Part shown: positions 39,165 to 64,000 of the stretch, in pieces | Layout: each line of letters starts with the position of its first letter | Position numbering within the stretch: the first letter of the stretch is position 1 | Assembly: GCF_000203795.2 (NCBI RefSeq) | Contig: NW_006281099.1 | Coordinates: forward strand, 1,615,774 to 1,679,773 | Direction: 5' to 3' | Source of the DNA: Batrachochytrium dendrobatidis JAM81 | Taxonomy: Eukaryota > Chytridiomycota > Chytridiomycetes > Rhizophydiales | Length of the DNA: 64,000 bases | Translations under genes and position numbers: made by a program | The notes under the pieces: generated by a model | The model's input: the letters and a program-made list of their open reading frames with translations, nothing else | What the model was told of the DNA's origin: nothing | The model's database searches: none

Positions 39165-42100
39165 TTAATTATCACCAAGAAAGTGTGAAATGTCCTTGTT
39201 ATTCGACTCTCCGTTCCAGCCTTCTTGGTTATTAGATTTAGCAATTTCTTTTTCAACAACATCGTGGTACCGAGTCTCGTCATTTATGCCAGATAGGCCT
39301 TTACTCGGCTTTTTTTCCTGAATCAAGCACCTTCCCTCTTTATCCAAAGTCCACAGTCCATGCTTTTTAAGTGTGTAAGACACATCCACATGGGTTCCGC
39401 CGGTATGAATCACCTGGAATCCGGTGTAATCTACTGGCAGAAGCTTATGGTTACCAAAATACAAATCTCCCGACACAAATTCAATCTGATCCAAAAAATG
39501 AACACGAGTGCGACCATCATCCACCGCTTCATCTTTTGAGAGAAAAGCCAGTCGGAAAAACTCGGCAAAGTTGCCTGAAAATAGCCCGCCATTGTTTTTA
39601 GACGAAGTTGCTGACTGGGGATGAAGTAAACTCTTGCTCGTTGAATCTTGAGTCGATGGATCAGCGTTGGGGTGTAAAGGTAAGCCAACTCCAGTCCAAA
39701 TAACGTTCCGCGTCTGAGCGACTGCTTCCCTGACAGCTTCTTGATCATCCAAGATCAAATCTAGCCCTTGCCGTTTAATGACATCCTCAATAAATCGTTT
39801 GGAGCCAGGAGTATTACGGAAATACATGATCCCCGTCATAGCTTTGGGAAGAGTCGAGGTGGTGATATGGTCTGTCGGTGCTATCACTAATTGTTGAGGA
39901 TCGGTTTCACCATTCCATGCATCCCCTTGAATAGCTAAAAGAACATCTGCACGAGCTGAAAACAAGTCTCCCACACCGCCACTCACAAGTTTCCGCATTG
40001 TATCACGGAAATCCTTTGTTACGACCAAATCAGCATCCAGGTAGACTACATGGAACCCGGCATCCAAGAGCCGTTGAATTACTTTGGGTTTATGTCTTAG
40101 TATTTTGTTGAAAGTAGGAGTTCCACTGACATATCTGTTGGGTCCTCCTTTTATATTGGGCATAAAGAATGACATGAACCCAGCTTCGATAAGTTTGTCG
40201 TGTGTTTGGATATCGATTGCCCAGTGTAGAATGTTACGCATGCCAAATTTAAGCAATGAACACCGGAGGTTTTCAACAACAGGAATGAAATCCAGATTGA
40301 CAGGAATCAGAATCAATTCGTTGTTTTCAGCAATTGTCGCAGCAATTTCCTCTAGACACTCATCACGATATCCCAATTGATCGCGATAGCATGGCTGCTT
40401 TGGATCAATTGTTAGGTGATTGACACGAATCCACTCGATAAGCTTGGTCTCGCCAAAGAATTCGCCCAAAACATTGAATGGCCGAAGAAAAATAAATTCT
40501 GGATCGGTCTGCGAAGGACGGAAAATGTGCCGATCTGACCATCCAATCCAAGGTGGACTGGAGTGATCATATGGAGATCGTACATACCGCTTCTTGTCAC
40601 GTTTTAAAAACGAACTGAGTTTGGAATTCACTAGAGCTATACACCAGTTTCCCATCATTATTTCATGATCCGAGTCGTTAGTAAGAAGATAAAGTAGGTA
40701 GAATAAATCATGAATGCATTTGAACAGCTTACCTGTAGCAAAAAACGATTCCTCTGGCAGCAATGTATGCTCCATGAATGCTAAATAATTGATTGCGTGC
40801 TTATCCTTTCGAAAAAATTGTACTGCTTCTCTGGTCAATACCATCCACTGCATCTGTTTATAAGCTCTCCAATGAGAAAATGGCCAGCTGGTGATACTCA
40901 ACTCTGGGGGATGATATACTGTAGAGTGATCAGCTCTCGCTAGATGAGGTCTCAAAAACCGATCGGCAATCGCTTCTGTATCGTTCCAGTAATCAATCCA
41001 ACTGAATCGGGGATAGAGGGATAAAGCAGCATGCATGTCAACATTGTTCCGAAGCGGCCAGTCGTAGTTGGATAAATTAACAATATAGTCCCAATCGGCT
41101 AGATCCACAAGCTCCCAAAACCCGCTGAGCTGGGTGTAGACCAAAGAGATATGGCCCCAGGTGTTGGCGAAACGGTTTTGCGCAAGAAAAAGATTTCCCT
41201 TTGGAGCAGTGCTGCTATAGCTACGATCAGCCAGATATTCCGAAATGCGGATATAAAGATCTTGAGCTGATTTGTCTACGTGAATTAGAATGATGGCGTT
41301 TCCATCGTCCAATAAATCAATGAGCATTTTAAGTTGATGCAACCCAGCATCTTCGTGAACCATGATAAGGAATGCCACGAGGTATCGTTTTTTTGATGGG
41401 GTAACTAAAGGAGCAGTTGGACGGATGGAGGGCAATGCAGTATGGAAGAATTCGTTGGGATCAAAACTAACGACAAAACGAACATCTGTTAAATTTGCAG
41501 AAGGGTTATTACCCTCTGCAACTGCATAGCACGCGTACCGATGTGCTTCCTAGTTGTTTTATAGAGATTGGTCAAGATGAAATATAAAAATAGGATGAGT
41601 AAATCAAAGCAGGTGCATAACATATGTTCAACTCCTTCAACGGTAAAAATGCAACCTCAATGTATACAAATGATTATAGCATACCAATACATCAACAGTT
41701 TCAAACTTGATCTTGATAAACTCGGTAATTTTCTCAGCAGTATCGTCTAGCAGAGATATTACAGTTTTGACCAGAGGATTAAGCGTAGCGATGGATCCTT
41801 TTAAAGGATGAAGATAAACCATGGCATTGAAAATCGATCCATCCAACATTTTGCAGTAATTGAATCCAGTGATTTTGATTTTGCTAAGTTTTAAAGCCGT
41901 GGTGATTTTCGAAGACATGCCAGATGTAAAGTATGCTTGACCTCGTTCAAGATCAGGTGGAGTTCGTTGTGGAATAGTCTGTAGAAATCGACGCTGTTCA
42001 TATGTGAGTTTCGGTTTAGGTGGAGTCGTATTTTGAATGTGAAAGTCTTTAAGAATCTGATTAGAATAAATCAATCAGTTGAATAACATAAAATGCATAG

Positions 42101-53302: not shown

Positions 53303-56300
53303 ATGTGGCCAACTATGAGCACTTTGACCTGGCTCACTGGTCTCCTGGCAGCCAGCGCTGCAATTAATCCGACATTTGTTACCGCTTATGATACTGTCAA
53401 TTCCAACGACAAAAATACCCAATTATGCGAACACAATATTACTATTATCATTTCTGGTAATTTCATGCCATTGGCTTTGCCTGGCAGTCAATCAACTGTT
53501 TAATTATCAAATATGTGTTCTAATTCGATTGATTTGTAATCTATATGGTCACGCATTGATTTGATGTTCATACTACAATTTGGAATTATTCGCTGCAATG
53601 TTCCAACCATTTTCGCCCGTCTTCTACTGTATCATATCCACGACAATGTGCCTCCACTTTTAATTGTTGAACACGACATTTATAGCCGACAACATCTTTA
53701 ATCTCAATCTTGCTGGACAATATATTCGTGGTCCTTTCGACTCTCCTCTAGTAGACACCCAAGCATGGAAAAAAATAAACACTTACACTCAGACGGTCAA
53801 AGGAAATAACTCTTTTCATGTTTCTGTCGATGTGGCCGATTTTGGCAACGTTGCTGGTCTTCTCGCTGCCGTATACGTTGATGACAAGCTCTATGCTGAC
53901 ACTGGTGTTTTAAACAACAAATGGATTGTTACTGAACAGCCACCAGAATCCGAGTGCTGGTGGACAGACGAAGATTTTAAAGCTGATTCCCTGTGGCATA
54001 CAAATGTTCATGCTTTGTGCAATGATCCTTCCAACTCATGGGGCGATCATGTATCGCGTTTCCATAGCCAGGCACCCAACTCTAAAGCAGAGTTTATGTG
54101 GTATGCAAACTGTCACAACACAGGAAACCGAACGACATTCAAGCACAACTACTTTAGAATAGATATTGATCTGCGATCAAATATTACTGTCCCTGTTCCT
54201 ACTTCGACATTAGCTATTGCATCCACTTCTGAATGCACTGATATCACCTCAAGTGTTGCATCCGCTAGCACAGCTTCTACCAGTGTTGGAACCACCATTT
54301 ACGCAATAACTACTACCAGTGCTGCATCTACCACTAAGGCGATAACTACTGGTGCTGCAACCACTACCACCGACGCGATGACTACTGGTGCTGCATCTAC
54401 CACTACCGACGCGATGACCACTGGTGCTGCATCTACCACTACCGATGCAATGACTACCGGTGCTGCATCTACCACTACTGATGCTGCCACTACCAGTGCT
54501 GCAACCACTACTACCGACGCGATGACTACTGGTGCTGCATCTACCACTACCGACGCGATGACTACTGGTGCTGCATCTACCACTACTGATGCAATGACCA
54601 CTGGTGCTGCATCTACCACTACTGGAGCAATCACTACCAGTGCTGCATCTACCACTACTGATGCTGCCACTACCAGTGCTGCAACCACTACTACCGACGC
54701 GATGACTACTGGTGCTGCATCTACCACTACCGACGCGATGACTACCGGTGTTGCATCTACCACTACTGATGCAATGACCACTGGTGCTGCATCTACCACT
54801 ACTGATGCTGCCACTACTAGTGTTGCAACCACTACCACCGACGCGATGACTACCGGTGTTGCATCTACTACCACCGACGCGATGACTACTGGTGTTGCAT
54901 CTACCACTACTGATGCTGTCACTACCGGTGTTGCATCTACCACTACCGATGCAATGACTACCGGTGCTGCATCTACCACTACTGATGCTGCCACTACCAG
55001 TGCTGCAACCACTACCACCGACGCGATGACCACTGGTGCTGCATCTACCACTACTGATGCTGTCACTACCGGTGTTGCATCTACCACTACTGATGCTGCC
55101 ACTACCAGTGCTGCATCTACCACTACTGATGCTGCCACTACCAGTGCTGCAACCACTACCACCGACGCGATGACCACTGGTGCTGCATCTACCACTACTG
55201 ATGCAATGACCACTGGTGTTGCATCTACCACTACCACCGACGCGATGACTACCGGTGTTGCATCTACTACCACCGACGCGATGACTACTGGTGTTGCATC
55301 TACCACTACTGATGCTGCCACTACCAGTGCTGCATCTACCACTACTGATGCTGTCACTACCGGTGTTGCATCTACCACTACTGATGCTGCATCTACCACT
55401 ACCGATGCAATGACTACCGGTGCTGCATCTACCACTACTGATGCTGCCACTACCAGTGCTGCAACCACTACTACCGACGCGATGACTACTGGTGCTGCAT
55501 CTACCACTACTGATGCAATGACCACTGGTGTTGCATCTACCACTACCACCGACGCGATGACCACTGGTGTTGCATCTACCACCACCGACGCGATGACTAC
55601 TGGTGCTGCATCTACCACTACTGATGCTGTCACTACCAGTGCTGCAACCACTACCACCGACGCGATGACCACTGGTGCTGCATCTACCACTACTGATGCT
55701 GTCACTACCAGTGCTGCAACCACTACCACCGACGCGATGACCACTGGTGCTGCATCTACCACTACTGATGCTGCCACTACCAGTGTTGCAACCACTACTA
55801 CCGACGCGATGACCACTGGTGCTGCATCTACCACTACTGATGCTGTCACTACTAGTGCTACCACTACCACTGATGCTGCATCTACCACTACTGACGCGAT
55901 GACTACTGATGCTACTACTACCGAGTCTTCATTCTCGATTATACCCTACTATACATCTACATTTGTAGCTGAATCTTCAGTTGAGACTACTTCTACCGCT
56001 GATGCTATCACTACCGAGTCTTCATTCTCGATTATACCCTACTATACATCTACATTCGTAGCTGAATCTTCAACTGAAATCACTTCTACGACTGCTGTTT
56101 TCGCAAGCACATCCACCACTACTGAAGCCTCTAGCTCTTGGGCCGGTTACAACTCACCTGTCATTTCATCTTCTACTTTTGACTTTACTAGCAGTTCCTT
56201 ATCAGAGCTTGCCGCCCCTTCGATTACTTCAGGTACATCTAGCATAGAGGTGACTAGAACGTATTACTCGGGCTCTGCATCTGCCACTTCAACATCCAAC

Positions 56301-56639
56301 TCCACATCAGGCAATCAAACAGCTGCTAATTCATCATCAGATAGTCCAAAAGGAAGCAGTAGCACCACCAACAGTGGTGTTTATGCAGGCGCGGGTGCTG
56401 CAGCTGCAGCCGTGGCAGCTGTCTTCATGTGGCGCCGTCGTAGCCTTTCGCTACGTAGTGCTGCAATCACTCCAAGCTTCCCTGAAAGCTCCAACATGAA
56501 CCCATTGTATGAGGGTAGTGCACTTCCCGACAACCCACTTTATGAAGCTCCAGGTGGAAATAATGGTGATTTCTCAAATGCACCAGTTGAAGATGGATTT
56601 GCCAATGACCTTGATGCTATTGATACCGTTCATGCCTAA
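53303..56639 (+). CDS. Mucin-like type I membrane protein with tandem NPLY cytoplasmic motifs
   Basis: Predicted cell-surface protein, 1035 aa, exons 53303-53456 and 53686-56639. The N-terminus is a signal peptide (STLTWLTGLLAASAAI). Residues about 50-225 form an ordered extracellular domain with four Cys and several N-glycosylation sites (for example KGNNSFHVSVDV, ECWWTDEDF); its family is not recognised. Then come about 550 residues of Thr-rich 11-13-residue repeats, a Ser/Thr stalk with two copies of ESSFSIIPYYTSTFVAESS, a membrane helix (YAGAGAAAAAVAAVFMW) and an RRRS stop-transfer. The about 70-residue tail has two NPLYE motifs 11 residues apart, plus acidic residues. NPxY motifs in animal receptors bind PTB or clathrin-adaptor proteins. 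An adhesin or receptor role is inferred. Confidence 0.75.
54300..55915 (+). repeat. Tandem 33-39-bp repeats coding the Thr-rich mucin region
   Basis: About 45 imperfect in-frame units, mostly 36 bp, coding variants of TTTDAMTTGAAS (also TTTDAATTSAAT and TTTDAVTTGVAS). Units occur in higher-order blocks, which points to expansion by unequal exchange. All lengths are multiples of 3. The same DNA is free of stops on the other strand for 529 codons, a by-product of the repeat. Confidence 0.9.
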
Positions 56640-57141
56640 TTGACATTAAACCTTTTTGTGATATGAATAAACTATGATTATTACAATCTATATGTTTATT
56701 TCCAAGTTGTCAAACTTGACCTTTTACAACTAGTAACAAAGGATGAGAATGGAGAAATAAATGAGATTGTTGACAGCCATCACCATTGATGTTGTTTTGA
56801 AAATATCAATAGATTATTGATTTACATGCCAGAAACATCTGTTGCTTGTGCCTCATGTACCATGACAATCTGGCTTGCTGGTACAGTCAATTTGCTGATC
56901 CTTACAATTCAACAAGACAACGTTCCTCATTTGGTCTTGTCCTGACGCGAGTTCAGCGTTCCATCTATTAGTTTATGCTAACCTAAACCAATCGTGGAAT
57001 GTTACAAACGGAAAACTCTTGTTTTTAAAGTGCTGCAACAATAGTTTGATTAATGCCATCAGAATATCTTCAAAGCATGATAAAATTGGAGTTTTCCATA
57101 TAACCAAAAAATATATTTTCCTTGCATTGTCAATAGTCGTA
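56640..57141. other. Intergenic region before the SS18-like gene
   Basis: 502 bp on the same strand between two genes. No repeat, RNA or gene recognised. The in-frame extension upstream of the chosen ATG (from 57019) begins without ATG and is not conserved-looking. Confidence 0.5.
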
Positions 57142-59695
57142 ATGTCAAATCATACTGGATCTATGCCAATCAACGCTGCCGCTGGGTTTCAACAGAAGCA
57201 GCAACGACTATTACAGCAACAGATGAACATGCAACCTCAGCCCCAGACACAGCTGTTGCAGCAACAACAAATGTTGCAACAGCTACAGAGTCTACAGTCC
57301 ATGGGACTGACTCCATTACAGATACAGGCAGTGATTCAACAGCAACAGCAGCAACTGCATCAGCAGATGCAACAAGCCCAACAGAACCAACAGCAGATGT
57401 ATTCGCAATTACAACCAGCTGTTTCATTGCCATCGCTTCATCAACAGCAATCCTTGTATTCTAATAACAGATCCGCTAGTCCAGTTGAATCTGCCAATAG
57501 TGCTGGAATCAATATGGCAGCAACCACCCCTACCAATACTAGCACAGTAGTCAATACCAGCAGAATAGGGTCTATATCCAACTTGGCTCCAGTTGCCCAA
57601 AAACAAACCTTGGATCAACTTGTTTCTATGCAACAGCTCAAGAATGGTCAGGCAGATACGGCAGTCATGATCCCACAAGTTAATCACAATATTGTTCAAT
57701 CGGTACGCTTTATGGGGTTTTCTTGCTGGAGTTTAAAGTTTTATGAAAGAGTAACTAACCAACTGGACAAATTATGCTCGATTCAATTCAATAATATTGA
57801 ATTGACTGCCAAAGATTTTGGATATCAATAAGCAGCTGATTAGAATTTTGGTCGAATATCAGAACAATGGGTGGATTGGAGAGCCCGAACAAAAGATGTA
57901 ATGTACTTTGTGCAAATGTCTGTCACATCGAGCTGTCTAGATATGCTAACTTTGACTCGTTGATGTAGATATCAGCAGCGTCTGCAGACAAATCTGACGT
58001 ATTTGGCTACACTGGCCGATGCGGTTCAAAAAAATGTATGTTTTTGCTAGTAGTATCCATGAGTTGATTGATACTACAGACTTGTATCAAGTAATCGATT
58101 ATTTTGTATCAATCTAATTATAGAAACCAGCTGCTCTGGCTGGTCAAACTCCGGATATATCTCAAGTAGATTACCCTTCAAAGCTTGCACACTTGCAACC
58201 AGGACAAGCTAATACTGCCCAATCCATCAAGTCAGATGCTGATCTAGCTAAAGGGGTGAAGCAGGAGAATGCTCAAGGGCCGCTATCTAGTAAAGTATCA
58301 ACGAATTTACCGGCATTATCCGAGCCGGATATCGAATTGGACAATGCCAAACCTACACAATCTATACAACACAAACGTCACAGTGTTCACGAGCCGCAAA
58401 GTATGCCTTTGACAACACCAGCCATGACACCCATAAATCCAGCTGTACCAATAATTTCAAATCTTCCCCAGCTACAGCCTGTTTTATCGGAAGCACCAAC
58501 TTCACTACAACCATATGTAGTGACTGTAGCCGAGATGAAGGCGTTGCCCCTGGATAGAGATACCTTGATTGAATCTGTAGCTCCACCAGTGCTTATTCTC
58601 GATCCAAATCATGGCTCATCTAAACCGGATCCAAGTACATATATTCCTGTTCCTCCTTTTTTGGGTGACAGCAACGACTCTATGACAAACCCAACAAAAA
58701 CACTACCTGGGTTTAGCGTGCTAGATGCGAATGCTGCCCGTGATATTCTAAGGCAGCGATTGAGTGCTCCCGGAGATAGTGGTCGTGGGGTCGGAAAATC
58801 CAATTTGGGTGTTGTTGATATTGAAGGCGAATATCGAGATAGCGATGTTGGTGGACTGCGAGATGGAGGTGTGTATGCCAATGTTGTGTCCAACACAGAT
58901 ACCATCACTACCTGTGGTGAGTTTCCCAATGCCACTCGCACCATTTCTCATGCAATGAATGTTGAAGCAACATCCGCTTTCGAGGTCGACGCTACTCCTG
59001 TACCAGTTGATCCAGTTTCAAATACTCGGGAGCATATTTTGATGCCTTCCTCAACCGTGGTTTCAAGCATGCCAATCCCTACACCCTCAAACTTGCCAAG
59101 CCACATTAAACAAGCATTGCTGCCATCCATTACTGATGCAGTTCGTGTCCAAAGGAATCATACATCTGGAGAAACAACCAATCAGGGAGCCCCTGATGAA
59201 GAGGAAGATGATGATGATTACATTCCTGAGCAACATGATGTGGAGGAGGACGAGGAAGAAGATGGTGAAGACAATGATGATATGCTTGCTACAGATGGTG
59301 TGGAGGATGATGCGTGCACAGACCATAGAGCGAATGATTCTAAACCAAGTCTTTTTAGTGACGAGGATGTGTTTTTCCAGCATGAGCAATCACTGTCTCA
59401 GCTCAGCCAGCAGCCAGACTATTCCAACACTCGACATCATCTACAGTTTGATTTAGTCGAGTCTCAAAGTAACACCACTGGAATGGCTGCACCAAGTCGA
59501 CCAGCCACTCACTCTGGTCCCAAACTTGCTATGCAAACCAATGCATTTGTGTACGGAAACTCCGACTCTGGAGAGATAGTTTCTGCTGCTGTCGGTCCAG
59601 ACAATCAATCAAAAGCAACTAGTCAAGACTTTGAAACTCAGGCTGCTCAAGCTAGCTTTGATATTTTTGGTGGAGAGACCGACTGGGGAAAATAG
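57142..59695 (+). CDS. SS18/SSXT-domain protein, putative SWI/SNF subunit
   Basis: Four exons, 57142-57702, 57815-57897, 57969-58035 and 58124-59695, 760 aa. The N-terminal 190 residues are Gln-rich. Residues about 188-237 form an SSXT-like helix pair: ILDINKQLIRILVEYQNNGW then YQQRLQTNLTYLATLADAVQ, the pattern of SS18, plant GIF/AN3 and yeast Snf11. In those families it docks on the Brahma/Snf2 ATPase. The long C-terminal part is disordered with a strong acidic run (DEEEDDDDYIPE, EEDEEEDGEDNDD) and ends FDIFGGETDWGK. Intron 1 acceptor choice (57814) is fixed by phase and by the conserved LDxN. Chromatin-remodelling role is by family. Confidence 0.75.
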
Positions 59696-62520: not shown

Positions 62521-64000
62521 ATGCAATTCACATCTGCTCTTGTTCTTGCTACTCTTGCAGCCTCTGCTGCCGCGTACCCCAAATGTCCAGGTGGCAGTTG
62601 TGCTCTCACCCAGCAGCCCGCTGCCGAGCAGAATGGTGCTCCTTTGCCTGATGTCGTTGAAGAGGTTCCTACTGAGCAACCTAGCACCACCTGCGCTGGA
62701 GGTGTTTGCCCATTGACTGCTAAATCGGTTCAAGAGGATCCTGCTCCAATTGTTCAGGAGGCCGGTACCACCTGTGCTGGAGGTGTCTGCCCATTGACTA
62801 CCAAACAGCCTGAAATTCCCGCCAAGAAGTCTTGCACTGGAACCGGCTGCAATTCTACAAAGCAGCCCGAGGCACCCCAAGAGCCTGAAGAAGAACCCCA
62901 AGAGTACCAAGACCCCGCACCTCCCGCCAAGAAGTCTTGCACTGGAACCGGCTGCAACTCTACAAAGCAGCCCGAGGCACCCCAAGAGCCTGAAGAAGAA
63001 CCCCAAGAGTACCAAGACCCCGCACCTCCCGCCAAGAAGTCTTGCACTGGAACTGGCTGCAATTCCAAGAAGCCCGAAACTCCTGAATCTGAGGACGAGA
63101 CTGAGGAGGATCCCGACCTTGAGGAGGATGAATATGAGCCCCCTGCCAAGAAGTCTTGCACTGGAACTGGCTGCAATTCCAAGAAGCCCGAAACCCCTCA
63201 GACTCCTGAAGAGCCTGAAGAAGAACTCCAGGAGTACCAAGATCCCGCACCTCCCGCCAAGAAGTCTTGCACTGGAACCGGCTGCAATTCCAAGAAGCCC
63301 GAAACTCCTGAATCTGAGGATGAGACTGAGGAGGATCCCGACCTTGAGGAGGATGAATATGAGCCCCCTGCCAAGAAGTCTTGCACTGGAACTGGCTGCA
63401 CTTCTACAAAGCAGCCCCAGACTCCCCAGACTCCTCAGACTCCCCAGCAACCCCAGACTCCCCAGACTCCTGGAGATGATTCCCAGGTGTACCAAGATCC
63501 CGCACCACCCGCCAAGAAGTCTTGCACTGGAACCAGCTGCACTTATACAAAGCAGCCCGAGACACCCCAGACTCCTCAGACTCCCCAGCAACCTCAGACT
63601 CCCCAGCAACCCCAGACTCCCCAGACTCCTGGAGATGATTCCCAGGTGTACCAAGATCCCGCACCACCCGCCAAGAGTACCGGTAAATCGTGCACATCTG
63701 CCAATCCACCTTCCGCTGGTCAGACTACTGGTAAATCATGCACATCTACCACTCCACCTTCCTCTGGTCAAACCACTGGTCAGACTACTGGTAAATCGTG
63801 CACATCTGCCAATCCACCTTCCGCTGGTCAGACTACTGGTAAATCGTGCACATCTGCCAATCCACCTTCCGCTGGTCAGACTACTGGTAAATCGTGCACA
63901 TCTACCACTCCACCTTCCGCTGGTCAGACTACCGGTAAATCGTGCACATCTGCCAATCCACCTTCCGCTGGTCAGACTACCGGTAAATCGTGCACATCTA
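62521..64000 (+). CDS. Secreted Cys-repeat protein, 3' end outside window
   Basis: Open from ATG 62521 to the right edge (493 codons, no intron, no stop). The first 19 residues (MQFTSALVLATLAASAAAY) are a signal peptide. The mature part begins with C-x4-C motifs: CPGGSC, then CAGGVCPLT twice, then about seven units ending KKSCTGTGC separated by acidic Pro/Glu linkers. After about 63690 the repeat changes to GKSCTSANPPSAGQTT units with a single Cys. Family unknown. A wall or matrix protein cross-linked by disulfides, or a secreted host-contact protein, are possible readings. The minus-strand frames here (for example 62518-63654) are shadows created by the repeats. Confidence 0.8.
   Translation, partial: MQFTSALVLATLAASAAAYPKCPGGSCALTQQPAAEQNGAPLPDVVEEVPTEQPSTTCAGGVCPLTAKSVQEDPAPIVQEAGTTCAGGVCPLTTKQPEIPAKKSCTGTGCNSTKQPEAPQEPEEEPQEYQDPAPPAKKSCTGTGCNSTKQPEAPQEPEEEPQEYQDPAPPAKKSCTGTGCNSKKPETPESEDETEEDPDLEEDEYEPPAKKSCTGTGCNSKKPETPQTPEEPEEELQEYQDPAPPAKKSCTGTGCNSKKPETPESEDETEEDPDLEEDEYEPPAKKSCTGTGCTSTKQPQTPQTPQTPQQPQTPQTPGDDSQVYQDPAPPAKKSCTGTSCTYTKQPETPQTPQTPQQPQTPQQPQTPQTPGDDSQVYQDPAPPAKSTGKSCTSANPPSAGQTTGKSCTSTTPPSSGQTTGQTTGKSCTSANPPSAGQTTGKSCTSANPPSAGQTTGKSCTSTTPPSAGQTTGKSCTSANPPSAGQTTGKSCTS
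62815..64000 (+). repeat. Two adjoining families of coding tandem repeats
   Basis: First block (about 62815-63680): units of roughly 90-135 bp carrying KKSCTGTGC and Pro/Glu linkers; several neighbouring units are nearly identical. Second block (about 63680-64000 and beyond): 48-bp units coding GKSCTSANPPSAGQTT, with Ala/Asn or Thr/Thr variants. The second block continues past the window edge. Confidence 0.85.

Follow-up and report, generated by a model that had tools for sequence, protein, structure and literature searches.

A chytrid surface protein with a paired NPLY tail and a candidate talin partner in the same genome

The window analysed here is a 64,000-nucleotide stretch of the genome of Batrachochytrium dendrobatidis JAM81, a chytrid fungus lethal to frogs (contig NW_006281099.1, positions 1,615,774 to 1,679,773), and its subject is a two-exon gene on the + strand (53303-53456 and 53686-56639) with a product of 1,035 residues. 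The protein reads, in order, as a signal sequence, an ectodomain, 12-residue repeats, two 31-residue repeats, a Ser/Thr-rich stretch, one membrane helix, W-RRR, and a tail with two NPLYE motifs 11 residues apart, so that the paired motifs, the single helix, the Thr-rich repeats and the extracellular domain described in an earlier note on this DNA are all present in the gene model. This double-NPLY surface protein is real and not a one-off, and the genome offers a plausible adaptor for it; the same genome also encodes a vinculin-family protein and a second protein whose tail is homologous. In animals and amoebae, paired motifs of this kind are bound by talin. We put at about an even chance the reading that it is a single-pass adhesion receptor presenting its NPLY pair to the well conserved F3 domain of the fungus's own talin. 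No earlier proposal of a fungal talin receptor was met in the literature searched, and this protein would be the first.

The paired-motif tail and its sister

The membrane helix, S949-M967 (in a numbering that carries one residue too many; the true length is 1,035), is followed by W-RRR, and because this basic cluster comes directly after the helix the tail is predicted to lie on the cytosolic side. The NPLY cores lie at 56499-56510 and 56532-56543, with 33 bases (11 residues) from N to N, and the first is located 22 residues past the first Arg of the tail. The tail has the two NPxY/F motifs of an integrin-beta tail, and the description 'integrin-like' stands for the tail; it does not for the ectodomain, as no vWA match was found in the window protein and a Pfam scan of its 991-codon frame gave zero matches. 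Five residues before the proximal NPxY, where integrin beta3 has a Trp, the window tail has a Glu. The helix opens with a GxxxG pattern, G-V-Y-A-G, although this counts for little in so Gly/Ala-rich a helix. Glycosylphosphatidylinositol-type processing of the tail, which the earlier note had raised as a counter-case, is rejected, since 69 mostly hydrophilic residues follow the helix.

The genome searched comprises 23.49 megabases in 33 contigs (labelled C1, C10, C32 and so on). The 108 C-terminal residues of the window protein identify one other place in it, C32:1010684-1010917 (E 8.4e-5), and the reverse search with the C32 tail recovers the window gene (E 2.7e-4). Local alignment of the two tails without helix and stalk scores 70, which none of 20,000 shuffles of either tail reaches (best 59 and 55); when the basic start is also removed, shuffling the C32 tail reaches the observed score in 6 of 20,000 trials. 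The C32 motifs read NPIFE...NAIF, with a spacing again of 11 residues. By these alignments the tail is a module: the two tails are homologous, and they stand under unrelated ectodomains. The C32 gene (C32:1008940-1010935), spliced by eye, encodes 573 residues in the order signal sequence, vWA-like domain, Ser/Thr/Pro stretch, membrane helix, FRR and tail, and its ectodomain matches VWA_2 at E 1e-5 (26.6 bits against a cut-off of 27), VWA at 0.0025 and Integrin_beta at 0.017. It is arguably the more integrin-like of the two proteins. A genome search with the C32 ectodomain listed nothing beyond its own three exons.

The window tail is of low complexity and rich in Ala, Pro and Gly, its sequence is in hand from one species, and shuffling its 68 residues yields at least two NPx[YF] motifs in 818 of 1,000,000 trials. 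Such properties would suit an ordinary surface mucin whose tail is nonfunctional and partnerless, with a local duplication as the origin of the NPLY pair, but we regard this as unlikely, because the three base differences between the NPLYE copies are all silent and because a homologous tail with equal spacing is found on the different ectodomain of the C32 protein. The word 'mucin' is itself a label from composition only.

A genome scan for NP[FLIMV][YF]E, a pattern that takes unsplit motifs with a following Glu, gave 98 sites; its reversal, used as a control, gave 73, so most of the 98 may be chance occurrences. The 60 rows read include the window sites twice and stand for 58 of the 98 sites, the other 40 being unread. 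Among these 58, the three that follow a membrane helix in a long frame are those in the window and C32 genes, and there are no others; in five more, the motif is preceded by a segment whose mean hydropathy is at least 1.4, in frames with just 27-55 upstream codons. The idea of a common fungal tail module was not borne out, with just two genes among the read sites having a helix and then the motif.

Gene model, repeat and ectodomain

The features of the gene, all on the + strand, are as follows.

53303..53456, +: exon 1, with the signal sequence and the first ectodomain strand (HNITIIIS); region and junction as in database models P0004-P0006
to about 53386, +: hydrophobic signal sequence (by eye)
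53457..53685, +: GT-AG intron, phase 1, with its junction as in three B. dendrobatidis database models
53686..54179, +: remainder of the predicted lectin-like beta-sandwich ectodomain (genome domain matches, alignments, AlphaFold models, fold searches)
54312..55922, +: stalk of 12-residue (36-bp) Thr/Ala/Ser/Asp repeats (repeat detection, codon counts)
55906..56089, +: 93-bp repeat in two copies of 31 residues each, ESSFSIIPYYTSTFVAESS (repeat detection)
56090..56372, +: Ser/Thr-rich juxtamembrane stretch (translation)
56373..56429, +: single membrane helix SGVYAGAGAAAAAVAAVFM, containing GxxxG (hydropathy maximum)
56430..56636, +: predicted cytosolic tail starting W-RRR, homologous to the tail of the vWA-like C32 protein
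56499..56513, +: first NPLYE motif (sequence)
56532..56546, +: second NPLYE motif, 11 residues past the first (sequence)
56637..56639, +: stop codon

The main open frame runs from 53664 to 56639 (991 codons), the start Met is at 53303 or alternatively at 53315, and the signal sequence and topology were assigned by eye and from hydropathy. The splice junction, IIIS-ADNIF, is identical across three B. dendrobatidis database models and aligns with the Batrachochytrium salamandrivorans homologue, and the paralogous domains on C10 have an intron with matching position and phase (by eye). The repeat region varies between assemblies.

In this assembly a single open frame spans the repeat. An open frame proves little by itself, because frames of 559 and 548 codons on the minus strand are likewise open across it (54252-55945, -); these two long antisense frames are probably a by-product of the repeat. 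The listed repeat periods of the array are multiples of three. With 29 consecutive 36-base units delimited by position alone, the coding frame shows 139 codon differences from the consensus, of which 73 are silent (53%, with 29% expected); in the other two forward frames the silent share is 16 of 146 (11%) and 12 of 145 (8%). The repeat copies in this count are not independent. Selecting 41 units by protein pattern gives 111 silent differences of 164, a choice that itself favours silent changes. What fixes the strand lies on either side of the repeat: downstream the helix and tail, which match the C32 gene in a shared frame, and upstream the ectodomain.

A repeat-free query against the protein database gave four matches among 7,992 candidates scored. 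The window protein is 100% identical to the B. dendrobatidis hypothetical proteins RTP6_000607, QVD99_001415 and BDV3_001077, which come from other assemblies, over an aligned 55-59% of this query, and the B. salamandrivorans homologue BASA62_005473 is 58% identical over 36% of it; the matches of the ectodomain profile are two proteins from B. salamandrivorans and a short one that has no name. The B. dendrobatidis models P0004 (446 residues), P0005 (379 residues) and P0006 (503 residues), from three assemblies, and the B. salamandrivorans model P0007 (307 residues) all stop within the repeat, and P0004 and P0006 begin further upstream than the window gene. Repeats are a frequent failure point for assemblies and gene callers. 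The early ends of the four models, together with the three other ectodomain loci that read as secreted, might nonetheless reflect a truncated or secreted protein, made from a message in which splicing or a frame shift within the repeat leaves out the tail. We consider this very improbable, given that one frame is open throughout, that the periods are multiples of three, that the coding frame has the most silent changes of the three forward frames, and that the downstream helix and tail resemble those of the C32 protein in the same frame.

There are 18 further matches to the window ectodomain in the genome, at C10:87820-94035 (eight matches), C26:493838-498294 (eight) and C33:111657-113012 (two), and these loci read as secreted multi-domain paralogues without helix or tail; some of the C10 domain copies are nearly identical to one another. 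The earlier note had named as grounds for refutation any orthologues in which the ectodomain is retained but the motifs are gone; what we find is that the three other ectodomain loci read as secreted and tail-less and that the orthologue models stop in the repeat. Pfam searches with 14 domain copies listed seven weak families, the best being FlgK_2nd (0.0058), and none of the seven is a lectin or carbohydrate-module family, the presence of a CBM67 model in Pfam being unchecked. Fold searches from two AlphaFold models had sugar-binding (carbohydrate-module-type) beta-sandwiches as their best matches, with no integrin or vWA chain among the best 50 (VIA-align) for either model, and a viral structure library gave zero matches at or below 0.001. 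Neither the SaRha78A carbohydrate module (CBM67) nor the Pleurotus ostreatus lectin has a significant sequence match to the window ectodomain. These fold matches suggest an ectodomain of carbohydrate-binding type, which may bind sugar.

Talin as the candidate partner

The earlier note had proposed looking for a PTB-domain partner, and the genome provides one. The IRS/PTB family search listed one place, within a 2,472-codon frame (C1:2484451 onward) in which FERM_M, IRS/PTB, Talin_middle, R4, IBS2B, I_LWEQ and a rod segment are above cut-offs and VBS2 is below. By these matches the frame encodes a talin with a PTB-type F3, an assignment that covers FERM F2 onward, the N-terminal F0-F1 not having been looked for. 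Its closest solved relatives are talin-2 and talin-1, and its F2-F3 shares 54% identity with a talin-1 chain (1y19) across 167 columns, keeping R358, W359, A360, Y377 and I396 (numbering anchored on W359). In the published analysis, R358A and W359A reduce talin binding to the WDTANNPLYDE stretch; R358 is part of the pocket that holds the integrin Trp, and the residues immediately preceding NPLY contact a surface made up of W359 and I396, of which W359 is also described as mainly structural (PMC2958305).

Vinculin-family matches are present on C15, in a family that may include vinculin relatives. A second FERM_M match above cut-off, on C21, was taken as spurious as it has eight internal stops. 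Genome searches with PID (PF00640) and integrin beta (PF00362) gave no match, but they were made without a positive control and do not establish absence. That B. dendrobatidis lacks integrins therefore rests not on our own search but on a survey that includes this species and describes integrin as absent and scaffolds as present in basal fungal lineages (PMC5042518).

The adaptor might also be something other than talin. NPxY also serves as an endocytic signal, and the protein could be an endocytic or sorting receptor that recruits a clathrin-type or other PTB adaptor; FxNPxY is the motif of the low-density lipoprotein (LDL) receptor type and NPFxD that of the Sla1 type. The residue two before the N is N in the first motif of the window tail and P in the second, hence there is no FxNPxY and an LDL-receptor-type signal is rejected; the tail residues do not fit a Sla1-type signal either, and neither tail Tyr starts a YxxPhi signal (Y-E-G-S and Y-E-A-P). 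With the negative PID search, limited as noted, and the talin frame as the sole IRS/PTB match listed, we judge a sorting receptor to be distinctly unlikely. The link from the outside to endocytosis or actin suggested by the earlier note accordingly finds no support in its endocytic branch, while the actin branch is reasonable because a single-pass double-NPxY tail, a homologous C32 tail and a talin with a PTB-type F3 occur in the same genome.

If the window protein is an adhesion receptor for talin, its ectodomain would bind a glycan on a surface, or else the coat of the fungus itself, and the long Thr-rich stalk, presumably O-glycosylated, would lift that ectodomain off the membrane and through the coat. 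The first NPLY of the tail would insert into the PTB-fold F3 of the fungal talin, whose rod would take vinculin and actin and so couple force, and the C32 sister would act likewise with its vWA-like ectodomain. Such receptors may serve the wall-less zoospore as it attaches, or act in rhizoids. More tentatively, and as a reading that is less likely than not, chytrids would have lost integrins and kept talin because a separate set of receptors, with one NPxY tail under different ectodomains (a lectin here, a vWA domain on C32), became its membrane anchors; the window protein would then link sugars at the surface with the actin cortex of the wall-less zoospore.

Several observations weigh against a talin receptor. 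The C32 motifs have F for Y, and the second has NA for NP. The tail is absent from all four database models and is thus seen in one assembly only, and a tail-only search of the protein database found none among 5,296 candidates (lengths about 570-1,811 only). In the same 29 repeat units one antisense frame has 90 of 157 differences silent (57%, with 31% expected), and because it scores as high as the coding frame the position-cut count supports the codon phase but does not tell the two strands apart. Isolated residues kept within a fold that is itself conserved carry little weight, and the retention of R358 and W359 may reflect only the fold or another partner, because neither chytrid tail has a Trp five residues before the first N. 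The fungal talin has Ala at the position of L325, which contacts the integrin membrane-proximal helix (PMC2958305), although a groove that is kept and an integrin-activating contact that is lost would fit a partner with an NPxY tail but no integrin helix. In a relative, Orpinomyces, the scaffold genes are not raised on solid cellulose, and the authors lean to non-adhesion roles (PMC5042518).

Known systems and neighbouring genes

Msb2-type fungal signalling mucins have a signal sequence, a Ser/Thr-rich stalk, a single membrane helix and a short tail, as does the window protein, but differ from it in tail and ectodomain. The NPxY spacing in integrin beta1 and beta3 is 12 residues, compared with 11 in the window tail, which is also without the HDRxE helix of integrin-beta tails. 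Unlike integrin beta, the window protein has no vWA/I-like domain, no upstream Trp and presumably no alpha subunit; like beta3, its membrane-proximal motif is NPLY (PMC2958305), with a second motif nearby.

The window protein is not an integrin, and may by analogy work like a Sib protein. Dictyostelium has no integrins, and there SibA is reported to bind talin through its membrane-proximal NPxY (PMC9197732, PMC9453864), which is essential for binding of talin A (PMC9197732). As in the Sib family (PMC9453864, PMC9197732), the window protein is a type I single-pass protein with a small-residue-rich helix containing GxxxG and two tail NPxY motifs, and B. dendrobatidis resembles Dictyostelium in having talin in its genome while no integrin is recognised there. 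The ectodomain of the C32 sister is vWA-like, with VWA_2 just below its cut-off, and may in this resemble that of Sib proteins; its motifs are NPIF/NAIF. In the window protein a lectin-like domain and a Thr-rich stalk take the place of vWA and a Cys-rich region; the likeness to SibA is one of description, and talin binding here would be by analogy. The Acanthamoeba mannose-binding protein and the Entamoeba Gal/GalNAc lectin, again likened by description, are lectins whose tails are integrin-like or carry NPxY, and their organisms have talin but lack a classical integrin (PMC12686525); both the organisms and the lectins are different ones.

Basal fungi are reported to have retained focal-adhesion scaffolds, talin and vinculin among them, although no integrin is recognised there. 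The 2016 paper describing this considered the role of the scaffolds unclear and suggested that proteins not homologous to integrin might substitute (PMC5042518). In the literature searched (subscription papers being outside its scope) no talin receptor or NPxY tail is named for a chytrid, and two candidate talin anchors in one chytrid genome make the missing-partner question testable. A 2025 study argues that talin force coupling is older than integrins (PMC12686525). Zoospores of B. salamandrivorans are reported to attach via skin sugars (PMC8490390), and the window protein adds a lectin-like surface protein to this genus.

Directly downstream of the window gene are more frames (57100-59692, +), the first of them Gln-rich; there is a frame at 56899-57828 and one at 58124-59692, and a Pfam scan of the latter was without match. 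A likely secreted repeat protein at 62521-63999 (+), also without a Pfam match, runs past the end of the window; its repeats contain Cys (SCTGTGCNS) and form tandem units of 105 and 225 bp. On the opposite strand, at 39168-41549 (-), one frame matches both Core-2/I-branching and nucleotide-diphospho-sugar transferase families.
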